Assembly (NCBI RefSeq): GCF_000826065.2
Contig: NZ_LN623538.1
Span: forward strand, 1-64,000
DNA length: 64,000 nt
Reading direction: 5' to 3'
Source: Tessaracoccus massiliensis
GTDB taxonomy: Bacteria; Actinomycetota; Actinomycetes; Propionibacteriales; Propionibacteriaceae
The translations under genes and the position numbers were made by a program. The notes under the pieces are model-generated. The model searched no databases, was not told the DNA's origin, and was given only the letters and a program-made list of their open reading frames with translations. Every line of letters starts with the position of its first letter. Position 1 is the stretch's first letter. This document shows positions 5,733-26,829 of the stretch, in pieces.

Positions 5733-6052
5733 GCGAGGCCAGTCTCGCCATCCGGATGCTGCACGACCGCGTCCTGGTGGACGTGGACGCGGTGGCCGGC
5801 GAGCGCCGCAGCGGCGGCGGCATCCTCATCCCCGCCACGGTGCAGATGGGCCGCCGGCTGACGTGGGCGAAGGTGGTGGCCATCGGCCCCAACGTGCGCT
5901 CCGTGGAGGTTGACGACCGCGTGCTGTTCGACTCCGAAGACCGCGCAGAGGTTGAGTTACAGGCCAAGAGCTATGTGCTGTTGCGGGAGCGCGACATCCA
6001 CGCCGTCGCCTCCTCCGCGCCGTCCGACGGTGGGACCGGCCTGTATCTGTGA
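5729..6052 (+). CDS. GroES/Cpn10-like co-chaperonin paralogue
   Basis: A 107-aa Cpn10-fold protein: MLHDRVLVDVD at residues 10-20, GGILIPATVQ (mobile-loop region), a VVAIGPNV strand, VEVDDRVLFD and the C-terminal YVLLRERDIHAV, all matching GroES order. It has no groEL next to it and carries an extended Ser/Gly-rich tail, so it is probably an accessory paralogue rather than the main GroES. Its GTG start overlaps the DUF3618 stop, suggesting coupled translation. Confidence 0.8.
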   Translation: MSEASLAIRMLHDRVLVDVDAVAGERRSGGGILIPATVQMGRRLTWAKVVAIGPNVRSVEVDDRVLFDSEDRAEVELQAKSYVLLRERDIHAVASSAPSDGGTGLYL

Positions 6053-6093
6053 GCTTGAGCGGCCCTCGCCGCTCGCGGGAATAGGCTGAGCAC

Positions 6094-6975
6094 GTGGATA
6101 GCTCACCGGGCACGTACACGGTCAGGCAGGTTGCCGCCCTGACCGGTATCGCGGGCACCACGCTGCGGATGTGGGAACGCCGTTACGCAGTGGTGAGCCC
6201 CGTCCGGTCCGAGAGCGGCTACCGCATGTACTCGGATTCCGACGTGGCCCGCTTGCGCGCCATGGCATCACTGGTTTCCGACGGTGTCCCCCCGTCGGTG
6301 GCTGCACGCAGTCTCGACTCCGTCACCCCACCCGAGGGCGGACCGGCGGGCGACGGGTTGGCCGAGCTTGATCTGGTGACCGCCGCCACCAGCCTGGACA
6401 CCCCGCGCCTGGACTCGGTGCTGAGGGATGCCTTCGCGCGCGGCCCGGTGGAGCTGGTGGTTGATTCCTGGCTTCTCCCCGAGTTGGCCCGGCTGGGCCA
6501 GGCGTGGGAGGACAACAACGTCAACGTGGCTGACGAGCACTTCGCCAGCGGGGCAGTGGCCCGCATGCTGGGGCGCCAGTTCGACGCCACACCCAACCCA
6601 GAGACGGCCCCGCAGGTGCTGGTGGGGCTACCTCCTGGTTCACGCCACGAATTCGGCCTGCTGTCGTTCGCCATCTGCCTGCGCAGGCAGGGCGTCGGCG
6701 TGGTCTATCTGGGGGCGGATGTGCCTGTCGACGACTGGGTGGCCGCGGCGCACACCCTGCGGCCGCGTGCCGCGGTGGTGGGCGCTCCGCAGTGCACGAG
6801 CTCGGACCTCGCCCAGGAGGTGGTGGACGGGCTGCGCGCCCAGTCGCCGCCCGTAGCGGTCTGGGTGGGCGGTGGTGTCGCTGCCACGGTGCAGCGTGCC
6901 GAACGCCTTCCCGACGCCGTGGCTGAGGCCGCCAGAGAAGTGGCGTTGGCCCTGCGCGCCGGCCGCCGCCCGTAG
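6094..6975 (+). CDS. MerR-family regulator with B12-binding domain (CarH/LitR-like)
   Basis: A 293-aa regulator. The N-terminal MerR winged helix spans about residues 8-75 (TVRQVAALTGIAGTTLRMWERRY). The middle four-helix domain has the CarH-type W-x9-EH motif exactly (W138, E148, H149). The C-terminal Rossmann-like cobalamin-binding domain (from about 174) carries the lower-ligand motif as SRHEFG (H185), with Ser where DxHxxG has Asp/Glu. The residue after the Trp is Glu139, where Thermus CarH has the His that forms the light-state adduct. CarH proteins repress DNA in the dark through adenosylcobalamin; here light response is doubtful. A flavoprotein gene follows 28 bp downstream. Confidence 0.88.
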   Translation: MDSSPGTYTVRQVAALTGIAGTTLRMWERRYAVVSPVRSESGYRMYSDSDVARLRAMASLVSDGVPPSVAARSLDSVTPPEGGPAGDGLAELDLVTAATSLDTPRLDSVLRDAFARGPVELVVDSWLLPELARLGQAWEDNNVNVADEHFASGAVARMLGRQFDATPNPETAPQVLVGLPPGSRHEFGLLSFAICLRRQGVGVVYLGADVPVDDWVAAAHTLRPRAAVVGAPQCTSSDLAQEVVDGLRAQSPPVAVWVGGGVAATVQRAERLPDAVAEAAREVALALRAGRRP

Positions 6976-8003: not shown

Positions 8004-8045
8004 AGGTGGTACACCACTAGAGACTGCGATGTCGCTGTCCACAGC

Positions 8046-8072
8046 TTGAATCATACCCCCTAGGGGTATAAA
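8046..8072 (+). promoter_or_regulatory. copB promoter with CsoR-type operator
   Basis: A 17-nt palindrome ATACCCCCTAGGGGTAT at 8053-8069 matches the known style of CsoR copper operators (G-tracts flanking a TA step). It lies between a TTGAAT (8046-8051) and a TATAAA (8067-8072), spacing 15, so a bound repressor would block RNA polymerase. It is 40 bp before the CopB start. No csoR gene is visible in this window. Confidence 0.7.
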
Positions 8073-8109
8073 GTCGATGTTGAACCCGAGGTACGAAAGG
8101 CGGGTTGAC

Positions 8110-8565
8110 ATGGACAAGCATTCAGACCACCACCACCCCCGCGACCACACACGGACTGACTCAGCGGATCACGCACCGCACGACGGGGTTCCAGGATCCC
8201 CGCATGCGGCGCATGGGGAGCACGCCGATCACCCGCACGAATCAGCTCATGGTCAGCAGCCGGAGCGTGATGGTCACATGGGCCACGGCGGCGGGCATGC
8301 CGGGCATGGCGCGAATCACGTCGCACAGTTCCGACGGCTGTTCTGGATCATGGCTGCCCTTGCCATCCCGGTCGTCGGGCTCAATGAGATGTTCGCTCAG
8401 CTTGTTGGCTATTCATTGCCTGACCTCGGGTGGATACGGTGGGTCTCTCCTCTGCTGGGCACGGTGATCTACTTCTGGGGCGGCTGGCCGTTCCTCACGG
8501 GTGCGGTTTCCGAGATCCGCGCCCGGAAGCCTGGGATGATGCTGCTGATTGGGCTGGCGATAACC
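8110..8565 (+). pseudogene. copB: CopB-type copper ATPase, N-terminal fragment (interrupted by IS)
   Basis: First part of a P1B-3 copper-exporting ATPase. From the ATG at 8110 it encodes an exceptionally His-rich N-terminus (18 His within residues 1-70, interspersed with Asp and Gly) and two transmembrane helices (about 77-100 and 112-131). No HMA domain is present, as expected for CopB. An insertion sequence enters after codon 152; the frame then runs into a TAG at 8587-8589 inside the IS. Removing the IS and one 8-bp target copy joins it in frame to 10003-11784, giving an intact protein of about 743 aa. An upstream in-frame ATG at 8077 is less likely. Confidence 0.93.
8558..8565 (+). repeat. 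8-bp target-site duplication (left copy)
   Basis: CGATAACC occurs immediately left of the insertion sequence at 8558-8565 and again immediately right of it at 10001-10008. Eight base pairs is the usual target duplication length of ISL3-family elements. Confidence 0.95.
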
Positions 8566-10000
8566 GGCTCTTCACAATCGAGGGTGTAGTCGGGGTTTGA
8601 ATCCGCCGGCCTCGAGGAGGCTGCGGGCGATGTAGTGGGTCAGGTTCCGGAAGCCCAGGGCGATACCGCGGAGGTGCTCGAGTCGGCCGTTGATGGCCTC
8701 GGTGGGGCCGTTGGAGGTGCCTGGCCGGTCGAAGAACGCGAGCACGTCAGCGGCGCGCCGGTTCAGGGTCCGACCCAGGCTGCGTAACTCCACTAGTGCT
8801 GTGGGAACGCCTGTGCTGATGTCATCGATGACCTTGTTGAGCAGGTAGCGGCCGAACTTCTTGTCAGGTTGCCGGTAGGCCACCACCAGACGTTGGTAAA
8901 TGCCCCAGGTGGCCTCGACCTCGCCATGCTGGTTGTCAGCGAACAGCGCTTCCAGGCGGGCGACCTGCTTGTCGGTGAGCAGATCAACACCGGTCAGCAA
9001 GGTGCGCCTGGCCCGGTAGAGCGGATCTCCAGCACGGCCTCGATGTCCGCGGGTGGTTTGCTGAACCCGTTGCCGGCACCGGGTCAGGGCCTCCCCTGCC
9101 AGGCGGACTACGTGGAAGGGGTCCATCACCGCGGTGGCATGGGCCAGTTCCTCCGCGGCAGCCGTCTTGTAGCCGGTGAACCCATCCATGGCTACGACTT
9201 CGATCTGGTCACGCCAGGCTCGGGGGCGCTCAGCGAGCCAGGTCTTGAACACCTGCTTGGAGCGGCCCTCGATCATGTCTAACAGTCGTGCCGGGCCGGT
9301 ACCGTCCCTGGTCGGGGTCAAGTCGATGACCACGGTGACGTACTTGTCACCGCGTCGGGTGTGTCGCCAGCAATGCTCATCGACGCCGATCACCTCGACC
9401 CCGTCGAACCGGGCAGGGTTGTTGATCAGCATCCGCTGGCCCTCGGCCAGCACCGCGTCGTTGGCGGTGTTCCAGGCCACGTCCAGACCTTCCGCGATCC
9501 GGACCATGCTCAAGTGCTGGATCACCAGCCCTTCCAACGCCCACCGCAACGCCGCCCTAGACAATTTCGAACGGGGCTCGGCCGCCTTGCTCAGGTCTTG
9601 TCGCCACACCCGACCGCACTCGACGCACCTGTACCGCCGGACCCTCACCTGCAAGATCGTGGGGCGCCACCCCAGCGGAACATGCGACAGCCACCGCACC
9701 ACAGTGCCTCGAGCTCTGCCCTGGCCTCCACAGTCGTGGCACCAGTCATCGGCGTCGATCACCCGGCAGGCCAACACAGCACGCTCAGACTCGACGCACT
9801 GCCCGGTCACCTCCAACCCGAGCCCGTCGAGCAGGCAGAAACTAGTCAGATCAGGGCAGCTGAAGGTAGCGTCAGGCACGTCGAGGTCTTCCAGATGAGG
9901 CGTGTAGGAACCTTCATCTTCGGAGGGCCTCGACCCCTTCAGCCAGCCGCCACGCCGCAAACCCGAACAGCGCTACCTACACCCTGGTTTGTGAAGAGCC
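8566..10000. mobile_element. ISL3-family insertion sequence, 1435 bp
   Basis: A complete element. Terminal inverted repeats of 24 bp match at 22 positions (GGCTCTTCACAA followed after three bases by AGGGTGTAG; left 8566-8589, right 9977-10000). Direct repeats CGATAACC flank it. It carries a single transposase gene in the leftward direction. It has landed in the copB reading frame after codon 152 of the ATPase. The intact inverted repeats and perfect target duplication argue for a recent insertion. Confidence 0.96.
8572..9879 (-). CDS. ISL3-family transposase
   Basis: Transposase of about 435 aa. The N-terminal part has the ISL3-type zinc-binding region (CHDCGG and RYRCVECGRVW). A helix-turn-helix-like stretch follows (SMVRIAEGLDVAWNTANDAV), then a DDE-type catalytic domain: VIGVDEHCWRH, VVAMDGFTGYK with DPFHVVRLAGEALTRCR, and near the end TSNGPTEAINGRLEHLRGIALGFRN with the catalytic Glu. 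The GTG at 9879, with GGAAG 9 nt upstream, is the likely start; the frame is open further to 9960. It reads convergent to copB. Confidence 0.92.
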   Translation of the reverse strand: MPDATFSCPDLTSFCLLDGLGLEVTGQCVESERAVLACRVIDADDWCHDCGGQGRARGTVVRWLSHVPLGWRPTILQVRVRRYRCVECGRVWRQDLSKAAEPRSKLSRAALRWALEGLVIQHLSMVRIAEGLDVAWNTANDAVLAEGQRMLINNPARFDGVEVIGVDEHCWRHTRRGDKYVTVVIDLTPTRDGTGPARLLDMIEGRSKQVFKTWLAERPRAWRDQIEVVAMDGFTGYKTAAAEELAHATAVMDPFHVVRLAGEALTRCRQRVQQTTRGHRGRAGDPLYRARRTLLTGVDLLTDKQVARLEALFADNQHGEVEATWGIYQRLVVAYRQPDKKFGRYLLNKVIDDISTGVPTALVELRSLGRTLNRRAADVLAFFDRPGTSNGPTEAINGRLEHLRGIALGFRNLTHYIARSLLEAGGFKPRLHPRL

Positions 10001-10002
10001 CG

Positions 10003-11784
10003 ATAACCGTGGCGTTCGTCGCTTCCTGGGGTGCCAGTAGCGGGGTCCTGAGCCACGAGTTGAACTTCTGGTGGGAGTTGGCGCTGCTGGTGGTGATCAT
10101 GCTTGCCGGGCACTGGATCGAGATGCGCTCCCTGGCGCAGACATCCTCGGCCCTGGACTCGTTGGCCGCGCTGCTGCCCGACGAGGCGGAGAAGGTGGTT
10201 GGTGACGGCGTCGTGAAGGTCGCGCCCGCGGAGTTGACTGTAGGTGATGTCGTCATTGTCCGGCCCGGATCGGCGGTGCCGGCTGACGGGAGGATCATCG
10301 GTGGATCTGCTTCGATGGACGAGTCGATGGTCACCGGAGAGTCCAAGACCGTGCGCCGCGACACAGGTGACCAGGTGGTCGCGGGAACCGTGGCCACAGA
10401 TTCCGGGGTCCGGGTCGAGATCACTGCCACTGGTGATGACACTGCTTTGGCCGGTATCCAGAAGCTGGTCGCTGACGCGCAGGCGTCGTCCTCGCGTGCT
10501 CAACGCATCGCTGACACCGCGGCTGGTTGGTTGTTCTGGTTTGCTCTGGGAGCCGCTGCGATCACTGCTGTGGTGTGGTCGGTTGTTGGCCTGCCCCAGA
10601 TGGCGGTGGTGCTCGCGATCACCGTGTTGGTCATCGCGTGTCCACACGCCCTGGGTTTGGCAATCCCCTTGGTTGTATCGATCGCTACAGAACGTGCTGC
10701 CCGAGGGGGTGTGCTCATCAAAGACCGCCTCGCCCTGGAGTCGATGCGCTCAGTGGATGCTGTCTTGTTCGACAAGACCGGCACTCTGACGAAGGGTGAG
10801 CCAACCGTCACCGCGATCGAGGTCGAGGCTGGTGGGAGCGGGGATCAGTTGCTCGCATTGGCCGCATCTGCGGAAGCCGATAGCGAGCATCCGCTTGCCC
10901 GTGCCATTGTGGGTGCTGCACGCTCCCGTAACTTGGATGTGCCTCGGTCCACGGACTTCTCCTCCTCTCCTGCCGTCGGAGTCAGGGCCACGGTCGAGGG
11001 CAGGGTCATCGAGGTCGGGGGACCCCATCTGCTCGAGCAGCGTGAGCGGGATGAGTTGCCAGTGGCCGAGGAATGGCGTGGGGAGGGAGCGATCATCCTG
11101 CATGTGCTGGCTGACAGCGAGGTGATCGGAGCACTCCGGTTGGCTGACGAGATTCGCCCGGAGTCCCGTGACGCCGTGGAAGCGTTGCATGCAGCAGGTG
11201 CGCAGGTCATCATGATCACCGGTGACGCCCAAGCCGTCGCTGAGACCGTCGCCAAGGAATTTGGCATTGACCGTGTATTTGCTGGTGTCCGTCCCGAGGA
11301 TAAGGCTGCCACGGTCGCCGAACTCCAAGACGAAGGCCAGAAGGTCGCAATGGTGGGCGACGGCGTCAACGATGCCCCCGCTCTTGCACAGGCAGATGTG
11401 GGCATCGCCATCGGAGCAGGCACCGATGTCGCGATTGGTTCTGCTGGGGTGATCCTCGCTTCCTCTGATCCTCGCTCGGTGTTGTCGGTCATCGATCTCT
11501 CCCGCTCGAGCTACCGAAAGATGAAGCAGAATCTCTGGTGGGCAGCAGGCTACAACCTGGTCTCAGTCCCGCTGGCCGCGGGCATCCTTGCCCCGGTCGG
11601 GTTCGTTCTGCCGATGAGTGTTGGCGCGATCCTGATGTCGGTCTCCACCGTAGTTGTCGCTCTCAATGCGCAACTCCTGCGTCGACTCGACCTTGCGCCG
11701 GAGGTCAGTACCGAAAAGTTTCTTGATCGTCCCACTGGGGGAGCCCCTGCACTCAGCCACGGGCAGAACCACGCCGGTCAGTGA
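10003..11784 (+). pseudogene. copB: CopB-type copper ATPase, C-terminal fragment
   Basis: Remaining 593 codons of the P1B-3 ATPase. Seen in order: further transmembrane helices, the actuator motif MVTGES, the CPH metal site in TM6 (VIACPHALGLAIP), the phosphorylation motif FDKTGTLTKGE, the HP motif SEHPLA, and the hinge MVGDGVNDAPAL. CPH is the signature of CopB (known: P1B-3, Cu+/Cu2+/Ag+). It cannot be expressed as a whole protein while the IS is present, unless transcription and a start arise within the IS. Precise excision would restore function. Confidence 0.93.
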
Positions 11785-11863: not shown

Positions 11864-12469
11864 TTAAGCCAGGGGCAGGGTAGTGACGCAGGTCGCACCT
11901 TCGACGTCCGATGAGAAAGGGCTCTCCGCGGTCTTGCCGTCCTTGGTCACCACAATGGTGCCCTTAACGTCCCTGGGAATCCAGAATCCCACGAAGCCGT
12001 TGGCGTAAGTGGTGGCGGTCTCGTCGACGAGCACCTCTCCGTCGTCGGTGGTGATGGTCACATGGACGTCCTCACCGTCCAGCTCCCCTTGGCAGGTCCC
12101 GACGTTGTGGAAGTAGCAGTCGTGCGTGAACGTTTCGTAGGGCGCCAGCGAGAGGTAGAACTCATCCCCTTCGATTTCAACCACCTCCTCCGTGATGCCG
12201 TCGCTGAGGATCACCTGGTCGTAGCGAACGGACCCCATGAAGGCCAGCGGCCGCGCACTTTCCTCCTGATCGAGTGCATCTACGATCTCTCTTCCGCTCT
12301 TGCCCTCCAGCCCGGCGGCGGCAAGCAGAGTTCCGGGCGCGGCAGCGTTCGTCGCCGGCTGAGTCGTCGGCGCTTGGGCGACATCGGAGGCGGTGGTGTT
12401 GCAGGCAGTCAGTGTGCCAAGTGCCAAGAGGGACAGGGCCAGCGCTGTGGCAAGACGGGAACGGATCAT
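11864..12469 (-). CDS. cueP: CueP-family copper-binding lipoprotein
   Basis: A 201-aa secreted lipoprotein. The signal peptide ends in the lipobox LTAC (Cys23). The mature part matches the CueP family closely: LLAAAGLEGKSGREIVDALD, FYLSLAPYETFTHDCYFHN, TCQGELDGEDVHVTI, TTYANGFVGFWIPRD and a C-terminal ATCVTTLPL. Three family cysteines (HDC, GTC, ATC) are present. CueP in Salmonella is a periplasmic copper protein; here lipid anchoring would keep it at the outer face of the membrane. The ATG at 12469 has AAGGA at correct spacing. A direct-repeat regulator box lies 75 bp upstream. Confidence 0.92.
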   Translation of the reverse strand: MIRSRLATALALSLLALGTLTACNTTASDVAQAPTTQPATNAAAPGTLLAAAGLEGKSGREIVDALDQEESARPLAFMGSVRYDQVILSDGITEEVVEIEGDEFYLSLAPYETFTHDCYFHNVGTCQGELDGEDVHVTITTDDGEVLVDETATTYANGFVGFWIPRDVKGTIVVTKDGKTAESPFSSDVEGATCVTTLPLA

Positions 12470-12543
12470 GGTCATCCTTGGGTTAGGAGGTGGAACTGCG
12501 TCAACTTTGCCAGGAGTGAACATTCCCTTCGCGCCAGATCTCC

Positions 12544-12560
12544 TCAAGGTTTGTTCAAGA
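12544..12560 (-). promoter_or_regulatory. Candidate response-regulator box upstream of cueP
   Basis: On the minus strand TCTTGAACAAACCTTGA: two CTTGA half-sites with 11-nt period, as OmpR-family dimers use. The same arrangement precedes the DUF305 gene at 14399-14415 in the same orientation, and both lie about 75 nt before the start codon. It overlaps the histidine kinase stop codon. Confidence 0.6.
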
Positions 12561-13646
12561 AACCTCAGGCAACTGGAGAGTAAAGGTGGAACCGCGGCCT
12601 ACGCCCACGCTGGCCCCGGTGAGGCGGCCGCCGTGGGCCTCGGCGATCGCCCGGCTGATCGTCAGACCTACCCCTGTGCCCGCCCCTTCGTCATGGCGAC
12701 GGTGCCCGTCGCCCCGGTAGAACCGTTCGAAGATGTGGGGGAGCTCGCCTTCTTTTATTCCGCGGCCATCGTCGATCACCTCGATGCGAACCCACGCTTG
12801 GGAGACATCGCTCGCTAGCGTGACTCTAGTGGCCCCGTGCTGCAAAGCGTTGCGGAGCAGGTTGTCCAGGACCTGTCCGATGCGTTGGCGGTCAACGGCC
12901 ACACACGCGCTGGGGATGGTTGGCAAATCCAGCGACACGCCTGCGGCTTCATACCGAGGCAGGGCGGTGTCCACTGCGGCCCGCAGCACGTCATCGAGCC
13001 GGGCGCGCTCGAGGACGACCGGTAGCCTCCCCTCCTCGAAGGCCGATACGTCGCGCATGTCGACGGCCAGGCGGTGTAGCCGCATGCACTGGTGGCGAAG
13101 GACAGCGAGCGTTTCCGGGGTTAACTCGGCGACGCCGTCCTCCAGCGCTTCTAGAACCGCGCTGAGGGTGGCGATCGGCGTGCGCAGCTCGTGCGAAAGG
13201 TCAGTGAGCATCCTCCGCCTGGTGGCCTCGGTAGCGCCCACCTGCGAGGCCAGGGAGTTGAGGCTCTTTGCCACGGTTCGCAACTCGTGCGCGCCGTCTG
13301 CAAGCTCAATCGGTGCTGAGTAGTCACCATCCGCTACCCGCTCGGATCCCCTTCGTAATTCAGCGACAGTAGTTCCAAGACGTCTGCTCAACCAGACGTT
13401 GGCAATGACAGCGCCCGCCAGCGCAATCGCAATCCCCCCGCCCAAGGAAGTAAACAGGCCTAGTCGGAAGGCTTCCTCCGCGTGCTCCAATACGTCAGGT
13501 TGCGCGCCATGCCCAGTCATGCGCATGTGTCGCTCTGCCGCCGGCGGCCCCACGATGGCGGCCACCACCACAACGGTGAGCGCCATCGTGCTGACGACCA
13601 GCACTTGTGCGCCCAGTAACTGGCGTGCCAACGAGCCCGGCTGCAT
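12555..13646 (-). CDS. Sensor histidine kinase of the copper locus
   Basis: A 363-aa membrane kinase. TM1 is at about residues 10-32 and TM2 at about 65-88. The extracytoplasmic loop between them is only about 30 residues and contains HMRMTGHG, a His/Met cluster suited to copper. HAMP follows (about 89-140), then the HisKA dimerisation domain with the phospho-acceptor in LSHELRTPIATL and an HATPase domain with N box (LLRNALQHG), G1 (DDGRGI) and GTGVGLTI. Its ATG overlaps the regulator stop (TGATG). Copper sensing is inferred from the neighbours and the loop. Confidence 0.9.
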   Translation of the reverse strand: MQPGSLARQLLGAQVLVVSTMALTVVVVAAIVGPPAAERHMRMTGHGAQPDVLEHAEEAFRLGLFTSLGGGIAIALAGAVIANVWLSRRLGTTVAELRRGSERVADGDYSAPIELADGAHELRTVAKSLNSLASQVGATEATRRRMLTDLSHELRTPIATLSAVLEALEDGVAELTPETLAVLRHQCMRLHRLAVDMRDVSAFEEGRLPVVLERARLDDVLRAAVDTALPRYEAAGVSLDLPTIPSACVAVDRQRIGQVLDNLLRNALQHGATRVTLASDVSQAWVRIEVIDDGRGIKEGELPHIFERFYRGDGHRRHDEGAGTGVGLTISRAIAEAHGGRLTGASVGVGRGSTFTLQLPEVS

Positions 13647-14335
13647 CACGTCCCCGTCCCCAATTTGTATCCGACCCCGCGGACGGTAAGGATGAAGCGC
13701 GGCTCCACAGGCTCGCCTAGTTTCTTCCGGAGGTTGCCCACATGGACATCGACGACGTGGTTGTCTCCCACCCAGCCCTCGCCCCACACTTCGTCCATCA
13801 ATTCGCGTCGAGTGAGGACGGAACCCGGTTTGGCAGAGAAGGCGAGCAGCAGATCGAACTCCGTTCGCGTGAGTTCGATGGGGGAGCCCGCCATGCGGGC
13901 TTCTCTCGACTCCGGATCGACGGTTAAGTCACCGAACGTTCGCTGGGGATGGCGCACCTTGTAGCGCGGCCGTCTGAGCATCGCTTCTACGCGGGCCACC
14001 ACTTCGCGGACGCTGAATGGTTTCGTCACGTAGTCGTCGGCACCGACGGAGAGTCCAGCCAGTGTGTCATTCTCCTCATCTCGGGCGGTGAGCATGATGA
14101 CGTAACAATCGCTGAACTGGCGGATCCGGCGGCACACCTCCACGCCGTCGAGGCTCGGTAGCCCGAGGTCGAGTAGCACCACGGATGGCTCCCACTCACC
14201 GACAACGCGCACAGCTTCTGCGCCATCGCCGCAGACTCGTGCCTCGAAACCAGTACGGTCCATATAGTTGGCAACTACGCCCGCCAGCACTGTCTCGTCG
14301 TCGACGACGAGGATGCGAGTCTTCTCCGCTTCCAT
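13646..14335 (-). CDS. OmpR-family response regulator of the copper locus
   Basis: A 229-aa regulator. The receiver domain (residues 6-120) has the acidic pair DDE, phospho-acceptor Asp in VVLLDLGLP, the conserved T in MLTARD and the K in VTKPFSVRE. The DNA-binding winged helix (about 135-227) includes ELTRTEFDLLLAF, NHVVDVHVGNLRKKL and FILTVRGVGYKL. GGAGG lies 7 nt before the ATG at 14335. It is transcribed with the kinase and divergently from the DUF305 gene. It is the natural candidate to bind the CTTGA-N6-CTTGA boxes at 12544 and 14399. Confidence 0.93.
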   Translation of the reverse strand: MEAEKTRILVVDDETVLAGVVANYMDRTGFEARVCGDGAEAVRVVGEWEPSVVLLDLGLPSLDGVEVCRRIRQFSDCYVIMLTARDEENDTLAGLSVGADDYVTKPFSVREVVARVEAMLRRPRYKVRHPQRTFGDLTVDPESREARMAGSPIELTRTEFDLLLAFSAKPGSVLTRRELMDEVWGEGWVGDNHVVDVHVGNLRKKLGEPVEPRFILTVRGVGYKLGTGT

Positions 14336-14398
14336 CAGCCTCCAGTCCTCACTTCGGATAGTCCCGCAGCACACATGACGTAGATCGATCTGGATGCA

Positions 14399-14415
14399 TC
14401 TTGAGCAATTCTTGA
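14399..14415 (+). promoter_or_regulatory. Candidate response-regulator box upstream of DUF305 gene
   Basis: TCTTGAGCAATTCTTGA: two CTTGA half-sites (14400-14404, 14411-14415) with 11-nt period. It matches the cueP box at 12 of 17 conserved positions in the scheme TCTTGA-R-CAA-NN-CTTGA (all fixed positions agree). It lies in the divergent region between the regulator and DUF305 genes, 77 nt before the latter's ATG, so it could also autoregulate the two-component operon. Confidence 0.6.
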
Positions 14416-14491
14416 CCTAAGACGAGCCGTCGCTGGGTTTGCGGAACATAGCGTTTGAGTGGACCATTCATACAGTCCTTTGGAGCATCCT

Positions 14492-15094
14492 ATGAAACAA
14501 CCCCGCCGCATCGTCCTTGTTTTCAGTGCGCTGGTGACCATGGGGTCACTCGTCGCGTGCGGAACCACGACACAACCCTCTGAATCCACAACACCCGCGG
14601 TTGTCACTGCATCTGTTGAGCAGGTGTCAACTCAGCACAACGACGCCGACACGATGTTTGCGCAGATGATGATCGTTCATCACGAGGGTGCCATCGACAT
14701 GGCTGATCTCGCGCTGACCAAGGCTGACAGGGACGAGGTGAAGGCACTCGCGGAGCGGATCTCAGCAGCGCAGGGCCCGGAGATCGAGCAGATGTCCGCT
14801 TGGCTTGAGACGTGGGGCGAACCCACCGACGCCGGTGGACATGCTGGCCATGGGGGCATGGACATGAATGGAATGACGCAGGAAGAAGTGATGGGCCAGT
14901 TGGAAGGCTTGTCCGGCGCCGAGTTCGACGACTCCTTCCTCAAGGCTATGATCGCCCACCACGAAGGCGCTGTCGAGATGTCCGAAAGGCAGTTGGTCGA
15001 CGGTGAGAATCCTGAAGCCCTCGCCTTGGCCGAGACGATCATCGCCGATCAGAAGGAGGAGATCGCAGAGATGCAGGGCCTTCTAGAGGGCTGA
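14492..15094 (+). CDS. DUF305 lipoprotein
   Basis: A 200-aa lipoprotein: signal peptide ending in LVAC (Cys23), a Thr/Ser-rich linker, then a DUF305 ferritin-like four-helix domain with two HHEGA motifs (MMIVHHEGAIDMADLA and MIAHHEGAVEMSERQ). A His/Met-rich insert between them (GGHAGHGGMDMNGM) resembles a copper-binding loop. DUF305 proteins are frequently found in copper-resistance loci. It lies divergent from the two-component genes and shares a regulator box with cueP. TGGAG precedes the ATG at 14492. Confidence 0.9.
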   Translation: MKQPRRIVLVFSALVTMGSLVACGTTTQPSESTTPAVVTASVEQVSTQHNDADTMFAQMMIVHHEGAIDMADLALTKADRDEVKALAERISAAQGPEIEQMSAWLETWGEPTDAGGHAGHGGMDMNGMTQEEVMGQLEGLSGAEFDDSFLKAMIAHHEGAVEMSERQLVDGENPEALALAETIIADQKEEIAEMQGLLEG

Positions 15095-15202: not shown

Positions 15203-15278
<76 letters not shown>

Positions 15279-25920: not shown

Positions 25921-26829
25921 TTGCGTGATCAGCTGCTGACACGTCGTGTCACTAGGGGCGGGGGTTTGCCGGCTCTTCCCAGACACGAGGCAATCGTCCC
26001 GAACGAGGTGTGGGATCAGGTGCAGACCGTGCTCGGCACCCACCGCTCGGCCGCGGACGCTACCCAGGTGCACGAGCACTACTTGAAAGGCACGGTGTTC
26101 TGCGGGCAGTGCGGCTCGCGCCTGATCGTATGTAACGCGAAGAGCAGCCAAGGCACGATCTATCCCTACTTCGTGTGCGCGAGCAGGCACGGCGGCAGGG
26201 GCGACTGCACCCGACAGGCGATGCTGATCGAGCAGGTTGAACGACTCATCGAACGCTTCTACGCCAAGGTGCAGATCGACCCGGAAACGATCGAGGCGGT
26301 CTCGGCGATGATCCATGCCCGGTTCGACGAAATGATGGCCGAAGGAGCCGCTGAACTCGCCGACCTCGCGTCCCGGAGGACCCAGCTCGGAGGCGAGCAA
26401 CAGAAGCTGCTCCAGGCTCACTACGCGGGGGCGATCCCGCTCGACCTGCTCAAGCGGGAACAGGACCGGATCACCGCGTCGCTGGAGACCATCGAGTACC
26501 GGATCACCGCGCACCACGACCACTACGCCGACGCGAGAGCGAACCTCGACGACTCACTGAAACTACTGTCCAACGCCGCCGACATCTACGAGCATGCCGA
26601 CGATGCGAACCGTCGGCTCCTCAACCAGGCGCTGTTCAAGACGATCGACATCGACGAGGACAACGACGTGCGCGTCGGCTACCGCAACCCGTACGACGGG
26701 CTGAGCATCCCCGGCCTCCATGCCGACGCGCTGAGCTGGGCCGCCGAGGCAAAGAAGATGGGCCAGGCTGAACCCTCGACCAAGGGCGGACCCTTGGTCG
26801 CGAGTTCACACCTGACCCGTTTGGGGTGA
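25921..26829 (+). pseudogene. Large serine recombinase, C-terminal fragment
   Basis: About 300 residues of a serine-integrase C-terminal half. It contains part of the recombinase domain (HEAIVPNEVWDQVQTVL), the zinc ribbon (FCGQCGS, later YFVCASRH and CTRQ) and the coiled-coil region (about residues 130-190, rich in Glu, Leu and Arg). The N-terminal resolvase domain with the catalytic Ser and Arg residues is missing; upstream sequence to 25807 shows no homology. It ends at TGA 26827-26829, inside the 3' end of the opposing tRNA-His gene. It is a remnant of an integrated element. Confidence 0.82.

Follow-up and report, generated by a model that had tools for sequence, protein, structure and literature searches.

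Two CTTGA direct repeats flanking a copRS-like operon of Tessaracoccus massiliensis are probable operators of a CopR-type copper regulator

Two direct-repeat boxes at the cueP-copSR-DUF305 locus of Tessaracoccus massiliensis are, to judge from their sequence, very probably operators of the CopR-like regulator encoded between them, in the form of a CTTGA variant of the Corynebacterium glutamicum operator. When the window, a stretch of 64,000 nucleotides of contig NZ_LN623538.1, was scanned with the pattern TCTTGARCAANNCTTGA, exact matches were found at 12544-12560 on the minus strand and at 14399-14415 on the plus strand, and all four half-sites were CTTGA; the sequence-only reading, which had placed a repeated box with such half-sites at both promoters, was confirmed in this respect. 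With up to three mismatches allowed, three matches were obtained in the window against 0.62 expected in shuffled sequences, the third lying at 26625-26641 with three mismatches. The minus-strand copy (box A, TCTTGAACAAACCTTGA) is a predicted operator upstream of cueP and carries the TGA stop of the kinase gene in its first half-site; the plus-strand copy (box B, TCTTGAGCAATTCTTGA) is a predicted operator in the divergent gap between copR and the DUF305 gene, facing the latter. By hand count, 74 nt separate box A from the likely cueP ATG at 12469 (68 nt from the alternative ATG at 12475) and 76 nt separate box B from the DUF305 ATG at 14492, so the distances of 75 and 77 nt given earlier were off by at most 1 nt. 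Both boxes had also been placed outside the regulator and kinase operon; box B is indeed intergenic, but box A and the end of the kinase gene overlap, the stop of the latter occupying 12555-12557.

The genes of the locus were assigned by domain searches. The cueP gene (11864-12469, minus strand) encodes a protein of the periplasmic copper-binding family (PF21172, 1.9e-54), which scored above the NF038094 subfamily cut-off and below the stricter NF038095 cut-off, and which begins, by eye, with a signal and the lipobox LGTLTAC. Upstream of it lie a copS-like histidine kinase gene with HAMP, HisKA and HATPase domains (12555-13646, minus strand), whose product has a short extracytoplasmic loop with HMRMTGH, and a copR-like gene for an OmpR-family response regulator (13646-14335, minus strand); the copR stop and the copS start overlap as ATGA. 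The divergent gene (14492-15094, plus strand) is the only DUF305 gene of the genome and encodes a lipoprotein of the CopM metallochaperone family (PF03713, 1.5e-49; NF049983 above the cut-off) with a signal and the lipobox LVTMGSLVAC at its start, again by eye. A tRNA-Lys (ctt) gene is located at 15203-15278, about 110 bp past the DUF305 gene. A second cueP-like gene, similar by eye and having no visible signal sequence, was seen at G000:C15:562773-563186 (locus L244), and no CTTSA box was detected around it in the 3.4-kb locus with one mismatch allowed.

The regulator and kinase of the window were 57% and 43% identical, respectively, to the CopR and CopS of the Corynebacterium plasmid pLEW279b, which according to the available part of the C. 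glutamicum paper may carry the cop region (PMC3140484). In that paper, the CopR operator was defined as TGAAGATTTgaTGAAGATTT in gel-shift assays of fragments carrying mutations at a few bases (PMC3140484), and its reverse complement is AAATCTTCATCAAATCTTCA, from which the window box differs by G for C in each half-site and by a slightly different spacer. pLEW279b itself carries CTTCATCAAATCTTCA (693-708), oriented relative to copR as box B is. The copR CDS of the plasmid is annotated from 688, but homology points to the ATG at 772 as the likely start; the plasmid box is then 63 bp upstream of copR, compared with the 64 bp that separate the copR ATG from the first half-site of box B in the window, both counted by hand. 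The +49/+50 hexamer described below was absent by eye after this plasmid box. The aligned kinase loops, AERHMRMTGHG in the window and FHDHMLMTGRE on pLEW279b, share H-M-x-M.

As far as the available parts of the papers on C. glutamicum CopRS (PMC3140484, PMC3353115) describe that system, the two have in common an orthologous-looking regulator and kinase, targets among the secreted copper proteins, a direct repeat with a period of 11 bp, and a box in the divergent copR gap in the same orientation. The distance from box to copR is 59-78 bp in C. glutamicum (PMC3140484) and 64-80 bp in the window by hand count. As in the C. glutamicum type, an OmpR-family regulator and a HAMP/HisKA/HATPase kinase share one operon, and the short extracytoplasmic kinase loop bears His and Met. 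The systems differ in that the half-sites of C. glutamicum are CTTCA, so that CTTCA-N6-CTTCA is not the repeat of the window; in that the window has two boxes, whereas one functional site in the genome is given in the portion of the paper available; and in that the second box of the window sits at the kinase stop before cueP, unlike what these sources describe. In addition, the window operon holds neither copB nor a multicopper oxidase, in contrast to the ATPase and multicopper oxidase targets of the C. glutamicum type. A CopR switch with a direct-repeat operator is thus already known in Corynebacterium, and the present one is a version with one letter changed per half-site. The literature search brought up no published account that we recognised of a CTTGA form of the CopR operator among the matches listed; Streptomyces CutRS was rejected as a source of the box, as TCTTGA in the part of that paper available sits inside a primer.

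Both types of target gene have precedents. According to the accessible text of the Corynebacterium crenatum study, deletion of copR cuts cueP and copS mRNA by 78-98% (PMC11124244); wild-type levels are there said to have 'decreased' with copper, which is probably a slip, and that text names no operator. In Synechocystis PCC 6803, the DUF305 protein CopM binds copper and is both co-encoded with CopRS and under its control, as far as the source was available (PMC4335983); copMRS is one operon there, in a cyanobacterium, and the DUF305 gene of the window likewise stands beside a CopRS-like pair.

In the genome of 3,212,185 bases, CTTGA-N6-CTTGA (ten fixed bases) occurred twice, both times at this locus, and its reversed control also occurred twice; the bare count is therefore at chance level and the signal lies in the location. 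A genome search for the box had been proposed as a check, and for these ten bases its outcome was divided in the same way, both copies being at the locus and their number matching the control. The sequence TCTTGANCAANNCTTGA was found twice in the own genome (reversed control, 0) and once more among 38 other genomes of the genus. A looser YCTTSA-N5-YCTTSA search of the own genome yielded two further places (C15:213889 and C16:137930) against five for the reversed control, and these were rejected as additional CopR boxes, their flanking open frames being without an obvious copper gene by eye.

The same division appeared among relatives, for which a pattern search had likewise been proposed. The genus sample comprised 39 genomes, with regulator relatives at E ≤1e-60 in 17. 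The exact box was found 104 times in the 39 genomes against 147 times for the reversed control, so the background is that of chance. However, 32 of the 53 exact boxes in the 17 regulator-bearing genomes were within 8 kb of a regulator homologue, where about 0.5 would be expected, as the 8-kb zones make up at most about 0.95% of the sequence; these 32 include the two boxes of the window and came from 14 of the 17. The remaining three genomes had CTTCA forms, at the kinase end in G001 and G033 and in the copR locus L150 in G035. In 26 regulator stretches (377,909 bases), CTTGA repeats at spacing 6 gave 31 matches at 30 distinct places (L151 and L165 overlap), compared with 0-2 matches at any other spacing from 0 to 15 and none for the reversed word at spacing 6. 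The near-regulator, spacing and kinase-end counts are not independent, because related species share loci. A regulator scan of the genome contigs returned mostly distant OmpR paralogues, and 5 of those 80 loci (L037-L041) were used later; the exact box was also scanned in 116 loci. The closest relatives of the window regulator (74-81% identity) were seen as proteins only, nearly all from short contigs, and in the comparison of homologues the window regulator stood alone on a long branch. It speaks against the CopR reading that for 37 of 71 regulator homologues a CTTSA box was absent from the two places tested; the 34 boxed regulators, the window included, had only CTTGA half-sites in 22 cases, only CTTCA in 7 and both in 5. 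The R-CAA-NN spacer, which had been taken as part of the box, proved too narrow for the boxes of relatives and was dropped.

To survey the targets, 50 distinct boxes were taken and the longest nearby frame of each was compared with the proteins of the window. Sixteen boxes preceded window-like genes (DUF305 in 10 cases, CueP in 3 and a copB-like ATPase in 3), all of them starting within 130 bp past the box end; one further target, which weakly matched the regulator, was excluded from this count. Nine further targets were scanned, and these comprised one multicopper oxidase, one YncE-like beta-propeller lipoprotein, one DUF6803 protein, two DsbD-like membrane proteins that fell short of the Pfam cut-off, one weak SPOR/rhomboid match and three without a family. 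Two near-identical boxes in relatives precede a multicopper oxidase. Some boxes precede genes without a visible copper link, such as that of a 1527-aa protein in L164; several are far from any copR, and such boxes are probably due to chance.

Among the alternatives, it is unlikely that the boxes serve another OmpR-family regulator which shares the motif. In its favour, three genomes of the genus without a regulator homologue at E 1e-60 (L227, L228 and L229) have a similar box near another two-component system, whose regulators are 38-42% identical; the boxes (L227 5542, L228 3918/4034, L229 6152) precede secreted proteins of another kind and lie at the kinase stop in L227 and L228. A box of the same shape near another system means that the motif is not entirely restricted to CopR. 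On the other hand, both exact sites of the own genome flank the CopR-like regulator, the boxes of relatives cluster at CopR-like regulators, and an operator of the same shape binds CopR in C. glutamicum, as stated in the part of the paper available (PMC3140484). The secreted proteins behind the L227-L229 boxes share a KYADY motif by eye.

The layout of the promoters bears on both the CopR reading and a second alternative. From 101 CTTSA-N6-CTTSA sites with enough flank, 80 non-redundant sites (<70% identity) were retained; L223 and L225-L231, hand-picked for holding the box, were omitted, and L224 and L232, picked likewise, were kept. A YANNNT hexamer was present at +49/+50 from the first base of the box in 44 of the 80 sites, against at most 5 of 80 at each of the remaining offsets (+16 to +109) and 0 of 22 non-redundant sites of five control patterns. 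By half-site type, the hexamer followed 22 of 36 CTTGA/CTTGA, 9 of 21 CTTCA/CTTCA and 13 of 23 mixed sites. The predicted -10 elements of the window conform to this geometry, being CAAAGT for cueP (12504-12509, minus strand, +50 from the start of box A) and TAGCGT for the DUF305 gene (14449-14454, plus strand, +49 from the start of box B). In the 80-site set no clear -35 consensus was seen at the expected place after the boxes, and the signal for further half-sites, a third at +22 and a fourth at +33, was weak (z 1.9 and 2.2). Such a layout suggests an activator that would be bound just upstream of the polymerase. That the repeats are instead core promoter elements, with TTGAC-like -35 hexamers, is very improbable: TTGA is contained in CTTGA, and CTTGAC resembles TTGACA, but the -10-like hexamer lies 33-34 bp past the box end, too distant for a -35, the CTTCA/CTTCA sites hold the same geometry, and the repeats are spaced by exactly 11 bp.

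Returning to the boxes as CopR operators, the overlap with the kinase gene recurred in relatives. Of 71 regulator matches, 3 were without a kinase found, and 61 distinct kinase ends were obtained by taking the first long frame after the regulator. A CTTSA box lay within -40 to +160 of the kinase stop at 22 of the 61 ends, and the reversed control at none; some of the 39 ends without a box are wrong frames, and 22 is a floor because by eye the frames of at least L212 and L215 seem to be wrong ones, L212 having a CTTCA-type box after its kinase. The stop codon fell in the first half-site in eight of the 22 (offset -2) and in the second half-site in six (offset -13), and since the frame offset varies around an unchanged DNA word, it is the DNA and not the peptide that is constrained. 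Like the cueP box of the window, boxes of several relatives contain the kinase stop codon. That the boxes are due to pure chance, or to coding constraint on the C-terminal end of the kinase, is scarcely credible, for although one box overlaps kinase codons and the bare genome-wide count is at chance level, the shifting offsets, the intergenic position of box B and the 32 boxes near the regulator against about 0.5 expected all argue against it.

Under the CopR reading, the CopS-like kinase would sense copper outside the membrane via its short His/Met loop and phosphorylate CopR, dimers of which would occupy the 11-bp-spaced half-sites in head-to-tail arrangement, some 50 bp upstream of the transcription start, and bring RNA polymerase to promoters with a -10 but no clear -35. 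Box B would activate DUF305/CopM and, by analogy with C. glutamicum, also copR-copS. As box A supplies the kinase TGA, cueP can use its own promoter inside the copRS operon, and this internal promoter would be driven by the operator overlapping the kinase gene end. Binding, phosphorylation and activation have been published for related systems; copper sensing, CopR binding and activation are what the analogy would predict for T. massiliensis, and the proposal of a copper two-component regulon gains support from the tracking of the box with the regulator, the copper target genes, the fixed -10 geometry and the likeness to the C. glutamicum operator.

A lone CTTGA near the copB promoter had also been linked to this regulon. 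It does exist, at 8045-8049, but membership of copB is not supported, as its promoter carries a CsoR-type palindrome, TACCCCCTAGGGGTA (8054-8068), in the spacer between a candidate -35 (TTGAAT, 8046-8051) and a candidate -10 (TAAAGT, 8069-8074) 17 bp further on; the lone CTTGA fits that -35 and was rejected as a CopR half-box. CsoR-type operators with a G-tract palindrome are known from other bacteria. A search with TACCC-N4-GGGTA missed the copB palindrome and gave two other places, and TACCC-N5-GGGTA found it, at two places in the genome (reversed control, three): the copB promoter and a site 23 bp upstream of one of the two CsoR-family genes of the genome, counted from its likely ATG. By analogy, CsoR probably represses copB, and the likeness to a CsoR regulon lies in the G-tract palindrome before both copB and a csoR-family gene; it would form a separate copper switch for the ATPase, with a palindrome that differs from the direct-repeat CopR box. 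The copB-type ATPase gene is split by an ISL3-family element (8566-10000; transposase 8572-9960, minus strand) flanked by the 8-bp target duplication CGATAACC (8558-8565 and 10001-10008), and the ATPase is therefore probably out of use. In T. massiliensis, copper defence of the envelope (CueP and CopM, under CopR) would be separate from efflux out of the cytoplasm (CopB, under CsoR).

More generally, it is possible, though we put it forward with some doubt, that the CopR operators of Actinobacteria follow one promoter code, with CTT(G/C)A half-sites, an 11-bp period, a -10 at 49-50 bp from the box start, and a half-site that often forms the kinase stop, which would place the promoter of the following gene within the kinase gene. 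An operator class of such defined promoter layout could allow the genes under CopR to be recognised from sequence across many Actinobacteria. The findings also suggest that the one-site picture of C. glutamicum is not general.

The recognition helix may read the G/C letter of the half-site. All seven CTTCA-only regulators had Gly and Arg at two positions of the helix, and among the 22 CTTGA-only regulators Ala was present in 21 and Lys in 19, the window regulator being an exception with Gly at the first position. The link between Lys/Arg and the half-site letter (Fisher 7.7e-5) is offered as a hypothesis, because the statistic ignores relatedness and some of the regulators are identical. Over the aligned part, the CopR of L150 (G035) and that of pLEW279b (L237) were identical, and the L150 copy is divergent from a cueP gene, which would reflect either a recent transfer or contamination of the G035 assembly. 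Finally, the stretch 5755-6288 of pLEW279b holds a second CTTCA-type box, at 6288 on the minus strand, before the gene of a four-helix-bundle copper-binding protein; this gene would be a further target beyond the one-site picture of C. glutamicum.
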